From an uncultured Arenicella sp. (lineage in GTDB: Bacteria; Pseudomonadota; Gammaproteobacteria; Arenicellales; Arenicellaceae): a stretch of DNA of 64,000 nt. Positions within the stretch are counted from its first letter, which is position 1. Each line of letters starts with the position of its first letter. The notes below the pieces were generated by a model. The model searched no databases and was not told the DNA's origin. It saw nothing but the letters and a program-made list of their open reading frames with translations. Position numbers and translations under genes: made by a program. The DNA is taken from NCBI GenBank assembly GCA_938048185.1, contig CALIVT010000001.1:124001-188000 (forward strand), given 5' to 3'. This document shows, one piece after another, positions 4,949 to 60,111 of the stretch.

Positions 4949-6304
4949 TTAAACGGGCATTAGCTTACTTATAAGGCGTTGATACACGTTTTCAAAGCCG
5001 CCATTGCTCATTATTAACACATTACTACGCTTAGTTTGACCGTTTATAAGCTCGAGCGCTTGCGTTAATAATGTGTCAGTACTGTCAAAGGTGTGGATTT
5101 TATCATTTTGCAGCTGTTGTATATCCCACTGAACGTTGTCATCTGCGAAAATTAGAGCTATGTCTGCGTCGTGCAGAGCGTCTTCCAACAGGTGCTTGTG
5201 AACACCCCGTTTCATGGTGTTCGAGCGTGGTTCAAGAATTGCAATTATCGGTTCATCGTTAACACTGTGTCGCAAGCCGCTTAGCGTTTGTGTGATTGCG
5301 GTTGGGTGGTGCGCGAAATCATCAAATACGCGCACCCGTTCGTTGTCAAAGATAAGTTCCATGCGGCGCTTAACCGACTTAAAACCCGCTAATGACTCAA
5401 CCGAGTTAGCGATCGGTATACCAACATGATACGCGGCGGCGATGGCGGCAAGGGCATTAGCCATGTTGTGGTCACCAATAAGACTCCACTCAACAGCGTG
5501 CGATTGATTACCGTGAACTACCCTAAAGCGAGACGCATCATCGCTTAGCTTTTCAGCACGCCAGTCGGCCGTTGTGCCATTGAACGTGCGCGTTTCGCTC
5601 CAACAACCAAGCTCTAAGACTTCCGTTAGCGCAGGCGCGTCCTGATTGTAAATAACTTGGCCATGCTGCGGGATAGTTTTAAGTAGATGATTGAATTGCG
5701 TTTGAATTGCGGCCAAGTCATTAAAGATATCGGCGTGATCAAATTCAAGGTTATTTAACACCAGTGTGCGCGGTTGATAATGCACAAACTTTGATCGTTT
5801 GTCGCAAAACGCGGTGTCATATTCGTCGGCTTCGATTACGAAGAATGGCGTAGTGCCGAGTCGCGCAGATTCGCCAAAATTTTCAGGCACGCCACCAATT
5901 AAATAGCCTGGGCTTAGGTCGTTGTCTTCAAGCAACCACGCAAGCATGCTGCTGGTTGTGGTCTTACCGTGGGTGCCTGCAACGCCCAAAACCCAGCGCC
6001 CGTGTAATACATTTTCGCCCAGCCATTGTGCGCCTGATGTATAGCGTAACCCCTGGTCTAACGCGGCTTCTAATTCTGGGTTGCCTCGAGAGATCGTGTT
6101 ACCAACAATGACAATATCAGCGCCTGCAGGGATATTGCTTGCCGCATAGCCTTCAAATAACTCAATTCCCAGCGACTCGAGCTGCGTGCTCATGGGCGGG
6201 TAGGTGTTTGCGTCTGAGCCTGTGACCTCGAAGCCTAAATCGCGCGCTAAGCGGGCAACACCGCCCATAAAGGTGCCGCAGATGCCGATAATATGGATAC
6301 TCAT
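4949..6304 (-). CDS. mpl: UDP-N-acetylmuramate:L-alanyl-gamma-D-glutamyl-meso-diaminopimelate ligase
   Basis: 451 residues, the usual Mpl length. It starts with the MurC/Mpl N-terminal MSIHIIGICGTFMGG, has the ATP-binding GTHGKTT at 111-117 region, and the Mur ligase central signature NNLEFDHADIF. Mpl attaches recycled murein tripeptide to UDP-MurNAc in the cytoplasm, bypassing MurC, MurD and MurE. The ATG overlaps the stop of the upstream membrane-protein gene by four bases (ATGA), implying translational coupling. It fits with NagZ and the YkuD protein further along the window as part of cell-wall recycling. Confidence 0.93.
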   Translation of the reverse strand: MSIHIIGICGTFMGGVARLARDLGFEVTGSDANTYPPMSTQLESLGIELFEGYAASNIPAGADIVIVGNTISRGNPELEAALDQGLRYTSGAQWLGENVLHGRWVLGVAGTHGKTTTSSMLAWLLEDNDLSPGYLIGGVPENFGESARLGTTPFFVIEADEYDTAFCDKRSKFVHYQPRTLVLNNLEFDHADIFNDLAAIQTQFNHLLKTIPQHGQVIYNQDAPALTEVLELGCWSETRTFNGTTADWRAEKLSDDASRFRVVHGNQSHAVEWSLIGDHNMANALAAIAAAYHVGIPIANSVESLAGFKSVKRRMELIFDNERVRVFDDFAHHPTAITQTLSGLRHSVNDEPIIAILEPRSNTMKRGVHKHLLEDALHDADIALIFADDNVQWDIQQLQNDKIHTFDSTDTLLTQALELINGQTKRSNVLIMSNGGFENVYQRLISKLMPV

Positions 6305-24730: not shown

Positions 24731-26545
24731 ATGTTAGATAACATAGATAAACCTGTTGCGGGCCATTTAAAAGGAACCGAGTTGCCGATACGTACAACCC
24801 TGATGCGCCTCATGGCTTACTTGTTTAGGCATCGCTCGCTCTTGTTTATCGCTGTATTTTTCTTGATCGTGACCGGCTCAATTGAGGCGTATTTCATCAA
24901 GGCTATCGATGATATTTTGAAAAGTGGCTTTCTAGCGGGCGATGATTGGTATGTGCGCTGGTCAGGCATGCTGTTGATGGCCGTGTTCCTCGCGCGCGCT
25001 ACGTCCGGTTATATTGGCAATTACGCGATGGCCAAAGCCGGTCGTTTGGTTATTTTCGAACTGCGTCAAGACACCTTCGGTAATATGATCGGTTTGCCCT
25101 CGCCTTATTTTGAAGAGAACACGTCGGCGCAGATTATCTCGAAACTCATTTACGATGTTGAAACAACGTCGGTTGCCGTGACCGATACCTTAGCGATCAT
25201 GTTTCGTGAGTCGTTTAAAGCCATCGGTTTAGTGGCTTTCTTGTTTTGGTCTGAGTGGCGTTTAACCCTGATCTTTATCTTGGTGGTTCCGCTTGTCGTA
25301 TTAGTCGCGGCTTACACCAATAAGCGATTCCGTAAAACGAGTAAGAAAATACAGGGCTCAATGGGTGGCATCGGCGATACTGTGAAAGAAGCGGTTGTTG
25401 GGCACAAAGTCATTAAGGTCTATAACGGCCAAGAGCAAGAAATAGAAAATTTTGCCAAAGCCAATACGTTCAATCTAACCCAGAACCTCAAGCGTGCTCG
25501 CGTATCGGCAGGGCTAGTGCCGTTAACCATGTTGTTAGTTGCGCCCGCGATTGCGCTAATTCTGTATATCTTTTTAAACTACCTGCGTACTGGCCCAGAG
25601 TCGGTGGTGCAGTTTTCGACTTATATCATGGCGTGTTTGGCGTTGATGAGCCCGCTAAAGCGACTCGCGAAGGTCAACGAGAAGGTGCAAATTGGTGTCA
25701 CAGCGGCCATTAGCGTGTTTGACGTGATCGATGCCAAGACTGAAGAAGACTCGGGCGAGATATCACTTGAAAAAACAAGCGGCGCACTACGCTTCGACAA
25801 TGTTTCGTTCAAGTATCGAGCTGATGATGAGCAGGCTGTGCTGCACGACCTTTCGTTCAATATCGCGCCCGGTGACAGGGTGGCCCTGGTCGGCCCGTCT
25901 GGTAGCGGTAAGTCGACAATCACCAATTTGATCTTGCGTTTTTATAAAGCTCAAACCGGTAACATCTATCTTGATGACCAGAATATCGATGATATTGTTC
26001 TTAAAGACCTGCGCAACCAAGTTGCTTTAGTTAGCCAAGAAACCACGCTGTTTGATGACACCATTGGTCGCAACATCATGTACGGTATGCTGGACCAATA
26101 TGACGAAGAGCGTTTACAGGCCGCAATAAAAGCAGCGCACGTTGACGAGTTTTTGCATGAGTTACCGCTGGGGCTAGACACTCTAGTGGGTGAGCACGGT
26201 TTACGCCTCTCGGGTGGGCAGCGCCAGCGCATCGCAATCGCGCGCGCGATTTACAAGAACGCACCCATTTTGATTCTGGATGAAGCCACTTCCGCATTAG
26301 ACAATAAGTCAGAGCGTTTCGTGCAAGATGCGCTAGAGGCTTTGATGAAAGACCGAACTTCCTTAGTGATTGCACATCGTCTCTCAACCATTGAGAGCGC
26401 TGATAAAATCGTAGTGTTAGAGCGAGGAAGAATTGTCGAGCAAGGTTCGCATAAGCGATTGCTCAAGAAAGACGGGGTTTACGCTGACTTGCACAGGGCA
26501 CAGTCTAACAATGCCAAAAAAGGCTTTTTCTTTTGGAAGAGTTAG
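24731..26545 (+). CDS. msbA: Lipid A export ABC transporter MsbA
   Basis: 604 residues, a fused TM-ATPase half-transporter. Six TM segments occupy about 30-320. The ATPase has Walker A GPSGSGKST, signature LSGGQRQRIAIARAIY, and Walker B ILILDEATSALD. Length and the direct neighbour lpxK support MsbA, which flips lipid A-core across the inner membrane. The next gene begins nine bases after its stop. Confidence 0.93.
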   Translation: MLDNIDKPVAGHLKGTELPIRTTLMRLMAYLFRHRSLLFIAVFFLIVTGSIEAYFIKAIDDILKSGFLAGDDWYVRWSGMLLMAVFLARATSGYIGNYAMAKAGRLVIFELRQDTFGNMIGLPSPYFEENTSAQIISKLIYDVETTSVAVTDTLAIMFRESFKAIGLVAFLFWSEWRLTLIFILVVPLVVLVAAYTNKRFRKTSKKIQGSMGGIGDTVKEAVVGHKVIKVYNGQEQEIENFAKANTFNLTQNLKRARVSAGLVPLTMLLVAPAIALILYIFLNYLRTGPESVVQFSTYIMACLALMSPLKRLAKVNEKVQIGVTAAISVFDVIDAKTEEDSGEISLEKTSGALRFDNVSFKYRADDEQAVLHDLSFNIAPGDRVALVGPSGSGKSTITNLILRFYKAQTGNIYLDDQNIDDIVLKDLRNQVALVSQETTLFDDTIGRNIMYGMLDQYDEERLQAAIKAAHVDEFLHELPLGLDTLVGEHGLRLSGGQRQRIAIARAIYKNAPILILDEATSALDNKSERFVQDALEALMKDRTSLVIAHRLSTIESADKIVVLERGRIVEQGSHKRLLKKDGVYADLHRAQSNNAKKGFFFWKS

Positions 26546-26554
26546 GCTCTGGTC

Positions 26555-27556
26555 ATGAAATTCAGAGACGCGCTACTAAAAAGCTGGATTAAGCCAAATT
26601 TGTTAACAGGGCTCTTAAAGCCGATGTCGCCAGTATATCGAGGCGTGTTTTCGGTGCGTAAGTTAGCGTTTGATAAAGGCGTCTTCAAACGCTACAAAGC
26701 GCCGCTGCCGGTGATCGTAATTGGCAATCTCACCGTCGGCGGAACGGGTAAAACACCCTTAGTAATACATTTGGTAGAACAACTTAAAGCACTTGGGTTT
26801 GCGCCTGGCGTGATTAGTCGTGGTTATAGTGGCGACGCGCCGAGTTATCCATTATTTGTTGAGCCGAGCACACCGGTTGCACATTCCGGTGATGAAGCCG
26901 CCCTAATTTTGCGTCGCACGGGTGTGCCGATAATGGTTGGGCCTGACCGGCAAGCCTCGATTGTAGCCTTACTGCATAATCATAAGATTAATGTCATTGT
27001 AAGCGACGATGGTTTGCAACACTTTGCGTTAGAGCGTGATATCGAAGTGTGTCTAATTGATGATACTTCGCCGCACGAAAACGAGAATATGTTACCAGCC
27101 GGGCCGTATCGCGAACCGTTAACGCGCTTGATGTCGGTAGATTTTATCGTGCGTCATGGCGGTAACGTCGGAAACGCTGCGAACCAATTTGCGATGCACT
27201 TAGCGGCCGCTAAGCCAAAACCCGTCGCGGTTGATAACAAAACTAAGTTTGATGCGCGATCTAAACTGCATGCCTTAGCGGGTATCGGTAATCCGCAACG
27301 CTTTTTTAACACCTGTAAAGAGCTGGGTTACGATTTTACGCCGCACGAGTTCCCTGACCATCATCATTTTTCATCACACGAAATTAGCTTTGGCGACGCC
27401 ACGGTTTTGATGACCGAAAAAGATGCAGTTAAGTGCGCCGATATTGCCGACGAGCGGCATTGGTATCTGCCGGTTGACGCGGTGTTGGATAAGCAGTTTG
27501 CGTCCGCGATAGCCGCGCGTTTAGCGCACATAAAAGATCAGGCCGTCACTAATTAA
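26555..27556 (+). CDS. lpxK: Tetraacyldisaccharide 4'-kinase
   Basis: 333 residues. An N-terminal membrane-associated helix is followed by the P-loop VGGTGKTP at 61-68, VISRGYSGDAP and SDDGLQHFALERDIEVCLID, all LpxK hallmarks. The enzyme phosphorylates the lipid A precursor at 4' on the cytoplasmic face of the inner membrane. It follows msbA by nine bases. Confidence 0.95.
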   Translation: MKFRDALLKSWIKPNLLTGLLKPMSPVYRGVFSVRKLAFDKGVFKRYKAPLPVIVIGNLTVGGTGKTPLVIHLVEQLKALGFAPGVISRGYSGDAPSYPLFVEPSTPVAHSGDEAALILRRTGVPIMVGPDRQASIVALLHNHKINVIVSDDGLQHFALERDIEVCLIDDTSPHENENMLPAGPYREPLTRLMSVDFIVRHGGNVGNAANQFAMHLAAAKPKPVAVDNKTKFDARSKLHALAGIGNPQRFFNTCKELGYDFTPHEFPDHHHFSSHEISFGDATVLMTEKDAVKCADIADERHWYLPVDAVLDKQFASAIAARLAHIKDQAVTN

Positions 27557-27794: not shown

Positions 27795-28532
27795 ATGTCG
27801 TTTACCGTTATCATTCCGGCACGTTTTGCGTCCACTCGCTTACCCGGAAAAGCGTTACTTGAGATTGGTGGTAAGCCAATGATCGAGCACGTGGTTGAAC
27901 GCGCTTATGAATCATCCGCCAGCCGTATTATTGTTGCTACCGATGATGAACGCATTCAACACGCTTTGATGCACACAAATTGCGAAGTATGTTTAACCCG
28001 TGCCGATCACGAGTCGGGCAGTGATCGCTTGGCTGAAGTGGTCCATAAGCTCGACATTAATGACGACGAAATTGTGGTGAATGTACAAGGCGATGAGCCC
28101 TTAATTCCCGGTAAGTTGATTAATCAAGTGGCAGCAGCGCTCGAGGTCGCGGGTGACGCAGTAATGTCGACGGCCGCTAAAGCAATTGAGAGCGATGAAG
28201 ACTTACTCAACCCGAACGTAGTGAAAGTTGTTTTCGCCCGCAATGGTAAAGCCTTGTACTTTTCACGTGCGTCGATTCCTTATGCGCGTGAACAACGTGT
28301 TGCCAAAGCGTGGCACCACATTGGCATCTATGGTTATCGCGCGTCATTCCTGAAACGTTACGATCAACTGGTGAAAAGCGCCATTGAACAAACCGAGTCT
28401 CTCGAACAACTCAGGGTGCTGGATAACGGCGACACCATAATGGTCGAAACCGTGAACTACGAAACTGGCATTGGCATTGATACCCCGCAAGACTTAGAGC
28501 GCGTACGCGCAATTTTCTCAAGCTCGAGTTAA
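27795..28532 (+). CDS. kdsB: 3-deoxy-manno-octulosonate cytidylyltransferase
   Basis: 245 residues. The nucleotidyltransferase signature IPARFASTRLPGKAL opens the protein, and VNVQGDEPLI, YFSRASIPY and ETGIGIDTPQDLERV are typical KdsB segments. It makes CMP-KDO for the lipopolysaccharide core in the cytoplasm. It starts two bases after the Trm112-like gene. Confidence 0.96.
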   Translation: MSFTVIIPARFASTRLPGKALLEIGGKPMIEHVVERAYESSASRIIVATDDERIQHALMHTNCEVCLTRADHESGSDRLAEVVHKLDINDDEIVVNVQGDEPLIPGKLINQVAAALEVAGDAVMSTAAKAIESDEDLLNPNVVKVVFARNGKALYFSRASIPYAREQRVAKAWHHIGIYGYRASFLKRYDQLVKSAIEQTESLEQLRVLDNGDTIMVETVNYETGIGIDTPQDLERVRAIFSSSS

Positions 28533-28534
28533 TT

Positions 28535-29014
28535 ATGGCTATTAAGGTCCTATTCGTGTGCATGGGGAATATTTGCCGCTCGCCGACCGCGCATGGTGTG
28601 ATGCAGCACAAACTAGATCAGCGTAAGTTAAACCATCTTATCGAGCTTGATTCGGCTGGCACGCACGCCTATCACGTCGGTGAAAAGTCTGACCCGCGTT
28701 CAAGAGCCACGGCCAAAAGCAAAGGCATTGATATGGAGTTTATTCGTGCGCGAAAAATATCAGTAAACGATTATGACGACTTCGATTTCGTTTTGGCGAT
28801 GGATGAAGACAACCTAGAGCTGATTAAGTATTACGCACCGGAACAGGCTAACGCCGACGTGCGCCTGTTCTTAGACTTCGCCAATCAAGCTGGTACGTGT
28901 ACTGACACAATTGTACCCGACCCTTATTACGGCGGTGACTCAGGATTCGACAACGTTTTTACCTTGGTCGATCGCGGCTGTGATGCTCTTATTGAGCACA
29001 TCTTGAATGACTAA
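28535..29014 (+). CDS. Low molecular weight protein-tyrosine-phosphatase
   Basis: 159 residues. The catalytic loop C-x5-R is CMGNICR (Cys9, Arg15) and the general acid is in VPDPYYGG. These enzymes dephosphorylate tyrosine kinases or sugar-phosphate pathways, often in exopolysaccharide control, but here the gene belongs to the conserved kdsB block. It starts two bases after kdsB and overlaps the next gene by eight bases. Confidence 0.93.
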   Translation: MAIKVLFVCMGNICRSPTAHGVMQHKLDQRKLNHLIELDSAGTHAYHVGEKSDPRSRATAKSKGIDMEFIRARKISVNDYDDFDFVLAMDEDNLELIKYYAPEQANADVRLFLDFANQAGTCTDTIVPDPYYGGDSGFDNVFTLVDRGCDALIEHILND

Positions 29015-29519
29015 CGTTATGAGTGATAGTTCGGTGATCACCGATATTCGAATCAATGTTGCCGAGCAGTCATTGCGTGGGTTTAAGGTTGATGGCGAAG
29101 AAATTTACAACACTCAAATCGCTACCGCTAAAAACGGAATAGGGCAGCTAAGTGGCAGCGAATGTACGCCGTTAGGAAACCATCGTATTCGTGCCAAGAT
29201 TGGCGAGTCAGCGCCTATCAACTCAGTGTTTATTGGTCGACGCGCAACGGGCGAAATTTATGACAATGAATTAGCCTCAGCCAACCCCGCGCGCGATTGG
29301 ATTTTGACCCGAATTCTATGGCTTTGTGGCAACGAACCCGGCTTTAATAGGGGGGGCAATGTTGATACCCAGCGCCGCTATATTTATATTCACGGTGCGC
29401 CCGACTCACACCCGATGGGCGTACCCAGTTCGCACGGTTGTATCAAGATGCGAAATACCGATATCATCCAACTCTTTAATCATGTGGTAGTTGGCACCAC
29501 AGTCACTATCAGCGAATAA
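29007..29519 (+). CDS. YkuD-fold (L,D-transpeptidase-like) protein without signal peptide, candidate cytoplasmic L,D-carboxypeptidase
   Basis: 170 residues from ATG 29007 (an alternative ATG is at 29019). The YkuD catalytic motif is intact: HGAPDSHPMGVPSSHGCIKM with the nucleophile Cys. No signal peptide or TM segment is visible at either start, so the protein should stay in the cytoplasm, unlike cell-wall cross-linking L,D-transpeptidases. It lies between a phosphatase gene it overlaps by eight bases and nagZ, three bases downstream. Signal-less YkuD proteins such as Acinetobacter ElsL act as cytoplasmic L,D-carboxypeptidases in murein recycling; the same role is inferred here. Confidence 0.85.
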   Translation: MTNVMSDSSVITDIRINVAEQSLRGFKVDGEEIYNTQIATAKNGIGQLSGSECTPLGNHRIRAKIGESAPINSVFIGRRATGEIYDNELASANPARDWILTRILWLCGNEPGFNRGGNVDTQRRYIYIHGAPDSHPMGVPSSHGCIKMRNTDIIQLFNHVVVGTTVTISE

Positions 29520-29522
29520 AGC

Positions 29523-30521
29523 ATGACACAACAACAAACTAAATTAGGTTCGCTGGTGCTCCCGCTAGGCCCAGTCATGGTCGACGTAGACGGTCTTAGC
29601 TTAACGCAGGGTGAGCGAGATCGCCTTGTTCATCCCAGTGTTGGTGCAGTCATTTTATTCGCGCGGAATTATTCGACTGTAGAGCAGGTAAGCGCTTTAA
29701 TCGCCGAGATAAAGGCTTTGCGCACTCCCGCGCTGTTGATTGCCGTAGATCAAGAAGGCGGGCGAGTACAACGTTTCCAAGAGGGTTTCACGCGCTTGCC
29801 GGCGGCGCAGAGCTTTGGCGATGCTTGGCAAGAAAACAAACAGTCAGCACCGATGCTGGCGTATCAATCCGCCTATACAATGGCGAGCGAATTAATTAAT
29901 GTCGGTGTTGATTTCAGTTTTGCGCCGGTGTTTGACGTGACGTCGAAAGACAGCGAAGTAATCGGTGACCGGTGTTTTAACTCTGAACCGCGCGCAGCAA
30001 CCGAGCTGCTGGGCGCATACATTGATGGCATGCACGCGGCTGGAATGGTTGCCATCGCCAAGCATTTTCCGGGGCACGGCGGGGTTCGCGGAGATTCACA
30101 CCATTGCCTACCTGAAGACGACCGCAATATAGACGACTTGCACGCTCATGATCTCGTGCCATACAAAGCGTTGGTTGATGAAATTCAAGGTGTGATGACC
30201 GCGCATGTGCTGTTCAATAGTTGCGACCAAGAAATTCCAACCTACTCAAGTTATTGGTTGCAAGACGTATTACGGCAAGAAATAGGATTTGACGGCGTGG
30301 TCTTCAGTGACGACTTAACCATGCAAGGTGCAATAGATGCGAATGCCGAACAAGGTTCAATTGTCGCCAGTGCACAACGCGCTATCTACGCGGGCTGCGA
30401 TATGGTGTTAGTCTGTAATAAACCTGAGCTTGCCGATGAATTGTTAGCAGGGCTTGAATTTGAACCGAATGAAACGTTATCTGCTAAGCTGAGCCAGCTT
30501 GCTTGTCGCGTTAAAATATAG
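29523..30521 (+). CDS. nagZ: Beta-N-acetylhexosaminidase NagZ
   Basis: 332 residues, a single GH3 domain. DQEGGRVQRF near residue 79, the KHFPGHGGVRGDSH loop with its catalytic His and Asp dyad, and VFSDDLTMQGA with the nucleophile Asp are all present. There is no signal peptide, as expected for cytoplasmic NagZ. It removes GlcNAc from anhydro-muropeptides during recycling, generating the ligands that signal for AmpC induction in some bacteria. Confidence 0.95.
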   Translation: MTQQQTKLGSLVLPLGPVMVDVDGLSLTQGERDRLVHPSVGAVILFARNYSTVEQVSALIAEIKALRTPALLIAVDQEGGRVQRFQEGFTRLPAAQSFGDAWQENKQSAPMLAYQSAYTMASELINVGVDFSFAPVFDVTSKDSEVIGDRCFNSEPRAATELLGAYIDGMHAAGMVAIAKHFPGHGGVRGDSHHCLPEDDRNIDDLHAHDLVPYKALVDEIQGVMTAHVLFNSCDQEIPTYSSYWLQDVLRQEIGFDGVVFSDDLTMQGAIDANAEQGSIVASAQRAIYAGCDMVLVCNKPELADELLAGLEFEPNETLSAKLSQLACRVKI

Positions 30522-58218: not shown

Positions 58219-60111
58219 GTGAACGCGCTTGCAAAGAGAGAGAATAAGTTAGTGACAAGCAAGCAATGCTCATCAGCAGTGGTTATCAAAATTAAATTTT
58301 TGACGAGTCTTTTTGGGTTTATTTTACTGCTGTTCGCGGCAGGTAGCGCACACTCGGCGACCTCGCTGACAAAGCCCGTCGCCCAATACACATTGCAGTG
58401 TGATGAGACATTTTCGTGTCCGGAATCATTGTTGCCGCGCGTTAGTTTTTGGGTGGAAGTATTTAGCCGTTGGGATACAGATACGGCAATTTTCCACGAT
58501 AAAAGTAACCCACAGCGAGTTTACTCCACGCTCAAACGTAACGAAGGTTGCCGTCGTAGCCGCAAGGGCGACTCTGTTTACAAAGAACGCAGGCGTTTGA
58601 AACGCAATCTGACTGCGTTAGCGGATCGCTTAAGAAACAAGCAAGGCTTGAGTGAGTCTCAAGCAAGGCTCTACGCCGCGTTTCATGGTGCGTCATCGCG
58701 TGAGGTCAGGGCCGCGGCAGACCGCGTTCGTTGTCAGTCAGGCAATAAGGACCGCATGCGCGAGGCATTGACTCAGTTTCACAATTATCGCCCAACTATC
58801 TTAGACGCACTTGAGAGTCAAAACTTAACGCCTGAGCTTCAATATTTGCCGTTTGTAGAGTCGGCTTTCAACCCCAATGCCTTATCGCATGTTGGCGCTG
58901 CGGGTTTATGGCAAATAATGCCTAGCACCGGTCGCTCGCTCGGTCTAATGGTCGATAACAACGTCGACGAACGTTACGATCCGCGTGCGGCGACCTATGC
59001 CGCGGCTAAGTATTTTCGCGACAGTGTCGATAGACTTACCGAGACCGCGTTTGAAAATGGTTCTAGCGTGCAAGCTAAAGAGCTTAATCCATTTGTTATC
59101 ACCTCATACAATTATGGGGTCCGCGGAATGCAACGGGCGATTAATCAGGTGGGTTTGGATTATGAACGCCTTTTGGTCGAATATAAGTCACCAAGCTTTC
59201 AGACGGCCGTCAAGAACTTTTACGCGAGTTTTCTGGCGGCCAGACATGTTGCTAAGAATTCGGAAAAATTCTTTGGTGTGATCGCACCAAACTACTCGCA
59301 ACAACTCAATTCGTACAACACGGTGGCGCTCACTCGAGCTACGTCGGCGAAGCGTTTGATCAGTGAGCTGGGGTTGGATAAAGATAAATTTAAAGCGCTT
59401 AACCCCGCGTTAAAGAAGGTTATATGGAAACATAAAGCGCTCATTCCCAAAGGTTTTGCGTTGAAGTTGCCGTATCGAGAAAACGGTTGGGAAAATCAAT
59501 TTATGCAGCTTGCCAGTTTGCCACGCGAGGTTGAGCGACCCGGCTTCACCTGGCACCGAGTGCGATCGGGCCAGACCGCGTGCGGTATCGCCGAAAAATA
59601 CCGCGCGTCATGCCGCGCGCTACGTAAACTAAACCGACTGGACAGCAAAGCGACAATTTTCGTGGGCAAACGTCTTAAAGTCCCTAGCCGTTCGGGCGGC
59701 GGGATTGAGGTGGTTAAAGGCAGTGGCACCGCCACCCCTAAAGTCGCAGCGGCAACCCCGGTTAATGTTTCTCAGCCACAAGTGGCACCGCCTAGCGTCT
59801 CGTCGTTGAAGCGCTACCGGGTGCGACGCGGCGATACGTCCTGTGTCATCGCCCAACGTTTCGGCATGCGCTGTGGTGAGTTTCTTGCCTTAAACGGTTT
59901 GAAACGCAGCAGTGTTATTCGTATTGGGCAAACGGTTCGAGTGTCGGGCAAGGATAGCTGGCATGTGGTTAAACGCGGCCAAACTGCCTGCGGTATTGCG
60001 CAAAGCTATCGCGTGCCCTGTGCCGATTTGCTTGATGCTAACCGTATACGCCGCAGCTCCACCATTAGGGTAGGTCAACGTTTACGAATACCAGTGGCGA
60101 CCAGCGGCTAG
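58219..60111 (+). CDS. mltD: MltD-like membrane-bound lytic transglycosylase with three LysM domains
   Basis: 630 residues from GTG 58219; a GTG at 58252 has a better AGAGAGAGA ribosome element and may be the real start. A hydrophobic export signal ends near residue 46 (no lipobox seen). The SLT domain has the catalytic Glu214 in PFVESAFNPNAL, and VGAAGLWQIMPSTGRSLG. Three LysM domains lie at about 443-489, 533-576 and 581-626, each with a Cys-x9-Cys pair. It cleaves peptidoglycan glycan strands in the periplasm. Confidence 0.93.
   Translation: MNALAKRENKLVTSKQCSSAVVIKIKFLTSLFGFILLLFAAGSAHSATSLTKPVAQYTLQCDETFSCPESLLPRVSFWVEVFSRWDTDTAIFHDKSNPQRVYSTLKRNEGCRRSRKGDSVYKERRRLKRNLTALADRLRNKQGLSESQARLYAAFHGASSREVRAAADRVRCQSGNKDRMREALTQFHNYRPTILDALESQNLTPELQYLPFVESAFNPNALSHVGAAGLWQIMPSTGRSLGLMVDNNVDERYDPRAATYAAAKYFRDSVDRLTETAFENGSSVQAKELNPFVITSYNYGVRGMQRAINQVGLDYERLLVEYKSPSFQTAVKNFYASFLAARHVAKNSEKFFGVIAPNYSQQLNSYNTVALTRATSAKRLISELGLDKDKFKALNPALKKVIWKHKALIPKGFALKLPYRENGWENQFMQLASLPREVERPGFTWHRVRSGQTACGIAEKYRASCRALRKLNRLDSKATIFVGKRLKVPSRSGGGIEVVKGSGTATPKVAAATPVNVSQPQVAPPSVSSLKRYRVRRGDTSCVIAQRFGMRCGEFLALNGLKRSSVIRIGQTVRVSGKDSWHVVKRGQTACGIAQSYRVPCADLLDANRIRRSSTIRVGQRLRIPVATSG

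Follow-up and report, generated by a model that had tools for sequence, protein, structure and literature searches.

A leaderless YkuD protein encoded beside nagZ in an Arenicella-like gammaproteobacterium is very probably an ElsL-class L,D-carboxypeptidase of murein recycling

We analysed a 64,000-nucleotide stretch of DNA (hereafter the window; positions 124,001 to 188,000 of contig CALIVT010000001.1, assembly GCA_938048185.1) from an uncultured Arenicella sp., in which an open reading frame (ORF) at 29007-29519 on the plus strand starts with ATG and encodes a leaderless YkuD protein of 170 residues with Cys145 in an SHGC motif. The sequence and setting of this elsL-type gene indicate that its product is very probably a cytoplasmic murein-recycling L,D-carboxypeptidase of the ElsL class, standing in for the absent LdcA in an Arenicella-like gammaproteobacterium. 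In the proposed pathway, anhydro-muropeptides would enter the cell via AmpG, N-acetylglucosamine would be removed by NagZ, and the peptide would be freed by an AmpD-type amidase. Cys145 of the YkuD domain would act as a nucleophile on the bond between meso-diaminopimelic acid (meso-DAP) and D-Ala in tetrapeptides, releasing D-Ala by hydrolysis and making the resulting tripeptide available to Mpl, so that an ElsL-type enzyme would substitute for LdcA in this genome. We infer the cytoplasmic location, hydrolysis over transpeptidation, the tetrapeptide specificity and the order of the steps.

A Pfam scan of the 170-residue protein returned YkuD as the sole family at E ≤ 0.001 (E 2.4e-21, residues 14-168). 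The catalytic motif SHGC is present with Cys145 as the predicted nucleophile, and in 46 aligned sequences, the window protein included, His129, Ser142, Gly144 and Cys145 were invariant and His143 nearly so. Topology was judged by Kyte-Doolittle hydropathy means and start-codon context. The in-frame codon immediately 5′ of the elsL ATG (29004-29006) is TGA; the ORF therefore has no possible longer start, and hence no upstream signal peptide, and a missed upstream start was rejected on this ground. Within the first 45 residues, the peak 11-residue mean of the window protein was 0.97, nearer to the 0.48 of an Acinetobacter-type ElsL copy than to the 1.97-2.98 of LdtB, LdtC, and LdtE of E. coli and a second YkuD protein of the same genome. 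The 19-residue maximum over the whole protein was 1.01, compared with 1.52-2.14 in the four leader-like YkuD proteins. An earlier note on this DNA, made from its letters, had claimed a complete YkuD catalytic Cys motif and the lack of an export signal, and both claims held. An AlphaFold2 model of the protein reached a mean predicted local distance difference test score (pLDDT) of 92.9, and structure comparison aligned it with YkuD of B. subtilis (1y7m; Z 15.7, root mean square deviation [rmsd] 2.7, 113 residues) and with Csd6 (4xzz; Z 14.0, rmsd 2.6, 127 residues).

These data bear on the possibility that the gene encodes an exported L,D-transpeptidase (Ldt), with a leader that was missed or another exit route, which would form 3-3 cross-links or anchor lipoproteins. 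The YkuD fold and the SHGC motif are indeed shared with transpeptidases, and the A. baumannii copy carries the annotation 'L,D-transpeptidase'. Against such a role stand the TGA abutting the ATG, the absence of a hydrophobic N-terminus in the window protein and in Acinetobacter-type ElsL alike, the alignment of exported Ldts over just ~45 C-terminal residues, and the second YkuD protein of the genome, whose N-terminus is leader-like. We regard this explanation as highly improbable, and identity as an exported transpeptidase was rejected on the short C-terminal matches and the non-hydrophobic N-terminus.

The assignment to ElsL is carried by likeness over nearly the whole protein. A. baumannii ElsL was 51.6% identical to the window protein over residues 12-170 (94% of the length; E 3e-45, tblastn), and one copy scoring above the cut-off of NF040925 was 57% identical over 133 residues. 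NF040925 ('cell wall-recycling L,D-carboxypeptidase ElsL') was the best NCBIfam match (E 2.2e-57, residues 12-170); the families that followed matched just ~45 C-terminal residues, and the match of E. coli LdtB, LdtC, and LdtE to the window protein was confined to ~43 residues at the C-terminal motif. Cys138 of A. baumannii ElsL sits in S-x-G-C and is equivalent to Cys145 of the window protein. According to the available text of PMC8649774, a C138S change abolishes the function of A. baumannii ElsL, and the enzyme acts on tetrapeptide, not pentapeptide, muropeptides. The class as delimited in that text comprises proteins with a BLAST E ≤ 1e-4, no signal peptide or transmembrane helix, a length of 105-200 residues, no peptidoglycan-binding domain, and a Cys equivalent to ElsL Cys138. 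The window protein showed this similarity, length, domain composition and catalytic Cys and, by hydropathy, had no leader or transmembrane helix; it did not belong to Peptidase_S66 (LdcA) and did not carry the export signal that marks exported L,D-transpeptidases. The ElsL class dates from a 2021 publication that counted 788 orthologues, of which 624 were gammaproteobacterial (PMC8649774, available text), and a 2026 review places ElsL alongside LdcA and LdcV (PMC13204101, available portions). The window protein is a further member of this already published class, to which the present analysis adds genomic support and a transporter lead.

The final tree comprised 102 rows, namely 4 exported Ldts of E. 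coli and 98 ElsL-like rows that included the window protein and A. baumannii ElsL. The exported Ldts were split from the 98 ElsL-like rows by a branch with support 100/100, a value that rests on a narrow outgroup of four E. coli Ldts and on a bootstrap that had not fully settled. The window protein lay nearest to Arenicella rows, and its smallest starred set counted 14 rows (97/86). In the first tree, of 104 rows, E. coli DpaA and the second YkuD protein of the window's genome fell inside the ElsL set on very long branches (10 and 7.9 changes per column, respectively), and these two rows were removed before the 102-row tree.

Completeness of the window's genome (G000) is 98.2%, and its nearest named relatives by the elsL protein are mostly Arenicella assemblies (186 relatives found). 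A profile search gave no Peptidase_S66 (LdcA) match in this genome or in any of the 21 genomes searched from its family, its own included; as a control, the same search found matches in 6 of 14 control genomes. The VanY family (PF02557), in which we would place LdcV, likewise had no match in the window's genome, and for want of matches we rejected the idea that another locus of this genome encodes an LdcA- or VanY-family enzyme. The genome encodes AmpG (494 bits, cut-off 350), one Amidase_2 gene for an AmpD-type amidase (103.6 bits), and AnmK (417.9 bits). Two further components lie in the window. The gene for NagZ, a cytoplasmic beta-N-acetylglucosaminidase of glycoside hydrolase family 3 (332 residues; Glyco_hydro_3 E 1.9e-78; NF003740 409.8 bits, cut-off 207), occupies 29523-30521 on the plus strand and starts 3 bases after the end of elsL on the same strand. 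The mpl gene at 4949-6304 on the minus strand (TIGR01081 620.2 bits, cut-off 388.7) encodes the ligase that rejoins murein tripeptide to UDP-N-acetylmuramic acid, and its product would be the user of the tripeptide. The coupling to nagZ, the presence of Mpl in the same window and the lack of LdcA, all asserted in the earlier note, were borne out, the last now at the scale of the whole genome. Its proposal of a signal-less, ElsL-like recycling L,D-carboxypeptidase likewise gains support from the identity to A. baumannii ElsL, the gene linkage and the near exclusion with LdcA described below.

A YkuD search of the genome returned two genes. The second, at L002:1114-2319 on contig 2 of G000, encodes 401 residues with a leader-like start, a YkuD domain and a Cds6_C NTF2-like C-terminal domain, a build that we take to resemble that of Helicobacter Csd6, an L,D-carboxypeptidase.

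We compared the distribution of ElsL and LdcA in a class sample of 114 Gammaproteobacteria genomes (the class being assigned from the names of the relatives), each from a different family, counting ElsL at ≥ 100 bits and LdcA above its cut-off. ElsL matches below 100 bits, nearly all of them short C-terminal matches in longer frames, were excluded (with them, 98 of the 114 genomes would count), as were six NagZ rows below 60 bits and two genomes with sub-cut-off LdcA (G032 and G056, both with ElsL). ElsL was found in 84 of the 114 genomes and LdcA in 14. Both were present in 2 genomes, LdcA alone in 12, ElsL alone in 82, and neither in 18, so that ElsL occurred in 2/14 LdcA-positive versus 82/100 LdcA-negative genomes (Fisher p 1.0e-6, a guide only, since the genomes are not independent and the test ignores kinship). 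Strong ElsL and LdcA thus nearly exclude each other across the class sample. Among the 18 genomes with neither LdcA above its cut-off nor strong ElsL, four have VanY above its cut-off, and in the remaining 14 none of the three models finds an L,D-carboxypeptidase.

The linkage of elsL to nagZ extends well beyond the window. In the 84 ElsL genomes, nagZ lay downstream of elsL on the same strand within 300 bases in 17, within 3.5 kb in 21, and within 10 kb in 1; it was within 300 bases on the opposite strand in 1, far away in 6 and on another contig in 35, and 3 genomes were without nagZ. In a search of the flanks, 38 of the 84 had a same-strand nagZ at most 4.5 kb downstream of elsL. Among the named relatives (the best 80 of the 186 found), nagZ was within 300 bases of elsL in 44 and within 3.5 kb in 12 more, and the block lpxK-kdsB-phosphatase-elsL-nagZ was complete in 22. 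The elsL-nagZ linkage recurs in many families. LdcA showed no such linkage: NagZ is on the contig of 4 of 15 LdcA matches above the cut-off (G041 twice, G065, G107), more than 300 kb away, and for the other 11 the contigs give no distance, NagZ being either on a different contig or absent from the genome. The linkage is unreported in the available portions of PMC9239154 and PMC13204101, and 'nagZ' does not occur in the main text of PMC8649774 as available, its data sets being outside the scope of this statement.

This conservation also bears on whether the protein could be a decayed or inactive relative retained beside nagZ by chance. Such an explanation has to contend with catalytic residues that are invariant or nearly so in the 46 aligned sequences, with an intact reading frame and with the recurrence of the lpxK-to-nagZ block among the named relatives, and we give it next to no weight.

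Other arrangements were seen in individual loci. Between elsL and nagZ we found genes for DUF924 plus DUF1820 (L128:1730-2670) and for DUF924 (L131:8073-8759), both families having no known function in Pfam, and at L121 an opposite-strand gene judged to be GGDEF/EAL from sequence alone. In E. coli K-12 (L104:1-5375), nagZ has the gene of an exported transpeptidase, ldtC, ~4.3 kb away on the opposite strand, which is probably coincidence. Searches of plasmid and phage collections gave no sign of mobility for elsL. The 5 matching plasmid records were three Acinetobacter records of 3.7-4.1 Mb, a 561-kb Acinetobacter record, and a Caballeronia replicon of 1.28 Mb; the 2 matching phage records, of Acinetobacter phage MD-2021a (254.5 kb), are presumed to be bacterial sequence.

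Several observations weigh against the assignment of the window gene to an LdcA-replacing ElsL. The NF040925 score of 193.4 bits, obtained over nearly the whole model, is below the curated cut-off of 270. That cut-off was reached by 0 of the 114 class genomes and by 1 of 31 genomes from the family of a Paraperlucidibaca genome; because so few genomes reach it, it seems to mark near-Acinetobacter copies and not the published class. A YkuD fold in common, as predicted by the model, says nothing on function, hydrolysis versus transfer included. In the phylogeny that the earlier note had suggested as a check, the ElsL-like rows separated from the exported Ldts. An approximately unbiased (AU) test did not reject a branch with the window protein and the exported E. 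coli Ldts together on one side (p 0.509), so the root position within the ElsL-like set is not fixed by the tree. When the two genomes with sub-cut-off LdcA are added, ElsL is present in 4/16 versus 80/98 genomes, and kinship tempers this contrast as well. VanY was above its cut-off in 8 of the 84 ElsL genomes and in 6 of the 30 others, and the VanY family therefore does not exclude ElsL. Among the 80 named relatives, 16 lack nagZ although 4 kb or more of sequence is available, and in 8 the available stretch is too short. Finally, the residue at Cys+2 is Lys in the window protein and Arg in A. baumannii ElsL.

The last point also favours a cytoplasmic YkuD hydrolase with another substrate, such as pentapeptides or non-murein DAP peptides, in place of the LdcA step, and the substrate given here is a prediction from sequence and gene context. 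The near exclusion with LdcA over the 114 genomes, the linkage to nagZ, and the full-length likeness to an enzyme that cuts tetrapeptide, not pentapeptide, muropeptides (PMC8649774, available text) all argue the other way, and we consider a different substrate very improbable. Across 97 ElsL-like loci, the Cys+2 residue was Lys in 67 and Arg in 30, a tally that counts one gene twice (L053 and L091). Taken with these counterpoints, the evidence still indicates that the window gene very probably encodes a tetrapeptide-specific recycling L,D-carboxypeptidase of the ElsL class.

In relatives with a non-adjacent nagZ, the interval between elsL and nagZ was often filled by two permeases of ATP-binding cassette (ABC) type; that of the window holds no permease genes. 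The order at L055:3394-8404 is SBP_bac_5 (a solute-binding protein, SBP), elsL, two BPD_transp_1 permeases and nagZ. Similar runs of SBP, elsL, OppB/OppC-type permeases and nagZ were seen at L023, L025, L032, L034, L048, L054, L057, and L062, and among the flank loci at L112-L120 (L117 without an SBP match) and L123-L127. We quantified this arrangement around elsL in the 84 ElsL genomes with L055, L048, and E. coli Opp as seeds, all counts being lower bounds owing to contig ends. A family-5 SBP lay ≤ 1.5 kb upstream in at least 24 genomes, OppB and OppC homologues lay within 3 and 3.5 kb downstream in at least 19, followed by nagZ in at least 14, and the complete order SBP-elsL-oppB-oppC-nagZ was present in at least 13. 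An OppD/F-like ATPase match was nearby in 2 of the 19 oppBC loci (L117 and L159). In G109 (L122:5505-9973), the gene that separates elsL from nagZ belongs to the AmpG family (TIGR00901 392 bits, cut-off 350), and the elsL reading frame is split. Compared with the PDB, the cluster SBP matched 5u4o best (226.1 bits), followed by DppA (1dpp, 187.1) and the murein-peptide-binding MppA (3o9p, 129.5), and the OppB homologue was barely above the cut-off of the nickel-permease model NF045470 (356.7 and 354.6 versus 350). With an SBP nearer to the DppA type than to MppA and a permease on a nickel model, the substrate is not settled by sequence.

ABC import of cell-wall fragments has precedents in YejBEF-YepA of Agrobacterium for muropeptides (PMC9790009, available portions) and in OppBCDF-MppA for murein peptides (PMC13204101, available portions). 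We tentatively suggest, with a confidence just short of even, that SBP-elsL-oppB-oppC-nagZ could be, in part of the Gammaproteobacteria, a recycling cluster with its own ABC importer, of a further kind, for murein peptides or muropeptides, acting beside AmpG or replacing it and drawing its ATPases mostly from elsewhere. The elsL-nagZ pair of the window would then be the importer-less version in an AmpG genome, and G109 a natural swap. If this holds, the cluster would be a new candidate for cell-wall fragment import in Gammaproteobacteria, comparable to YejBEF-YepA.

In the window, elsL and nagZ close a run of genes on one strand in the order msbA-lpxK-kdsB-phosphatase-elsL-nagZ. All on the plus strand, msbA spans 24731-26545 (TIGR02203 641.5 bits, cut-off 602), lpxK 26555-27556 (TIGR00682 226 bits, cut-off 91.95), and kdsB 27795-28532 (TIGR00466 283.5 bits, cut-off 155.2), and a gene of the low-molecular-weight phosphotyrosine phosphatase family at 28535-29014 (LMWPc E 2.9e-39) reaches 8 bases into the elsL ORF. 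Scans for promoters and terminators near elsL gave no signal beyond that of shuffled sequence. A further murein enzyme in the window, an MltD-like lytic transglycosylase, is encoded at 58219-60111 on the plus strand (NF008050 136.5 bits, below the cut-off of 508).

Together, these results would assign an enzyme to the L,D-carboxypeptidase step that had been missing from murein recycling in Arenicella-like bacteria. The gene linkage and the near exclusion with LdcA provide independent genomic support for the ElsL class, for which the experiments were apparently done in A. baumannii. Many ElsL genes can also be recognised by their position near nagZ, so that 'L,D-transpeptidase' annotations could be renamed. 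Caulobacter is described as having neither LdcA nor Mpl (PMC13046382, available portions).

Compared with known systems, the window protein is closest to A. baumannii ElsL (NF040925). As far as the available parts of PMC8649774 and PMC9239154 describe it, both are leaderless single YkuD domains of 105-200 residues with a catalytic Cys, encoded in genomes without LdcA that have the AmpG/AmpD/NagZ/Mpl pathway. The gene settings differ: in the window, elsL is paired with nagZ at the end of the msbA-lpxK-kdsB-phosphatase run, whereas the A. baumannii record has a DUF454 gene before elsL and, over the 8.5 kb inspected, no annotated nagZ. The Lys at Cys+2 and the score below the NF040925 cut-off are further differences. 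Exported L,D-transpeptidases and Csd6/Pgp2 share the YkuD fold and the Cys motif; the E. coli Ldts with which the window protein was compared differ in their leader-like starts, their length of 306-334 residues, and a likeness confined to the C-terminal motif. LdcA, the serine L,D-carboxypeptidase of E. coli (Peptidase_S66), would carry out the same conversion of tetrapeptide to tripeptide with an unrelated family and nucleophile, and LdcV of Vibrio cholerae, a LAS-superfamily zinc enzyme according to the available text of PMC8649774, is an alternative enzyme of unrelated fold for the same step.

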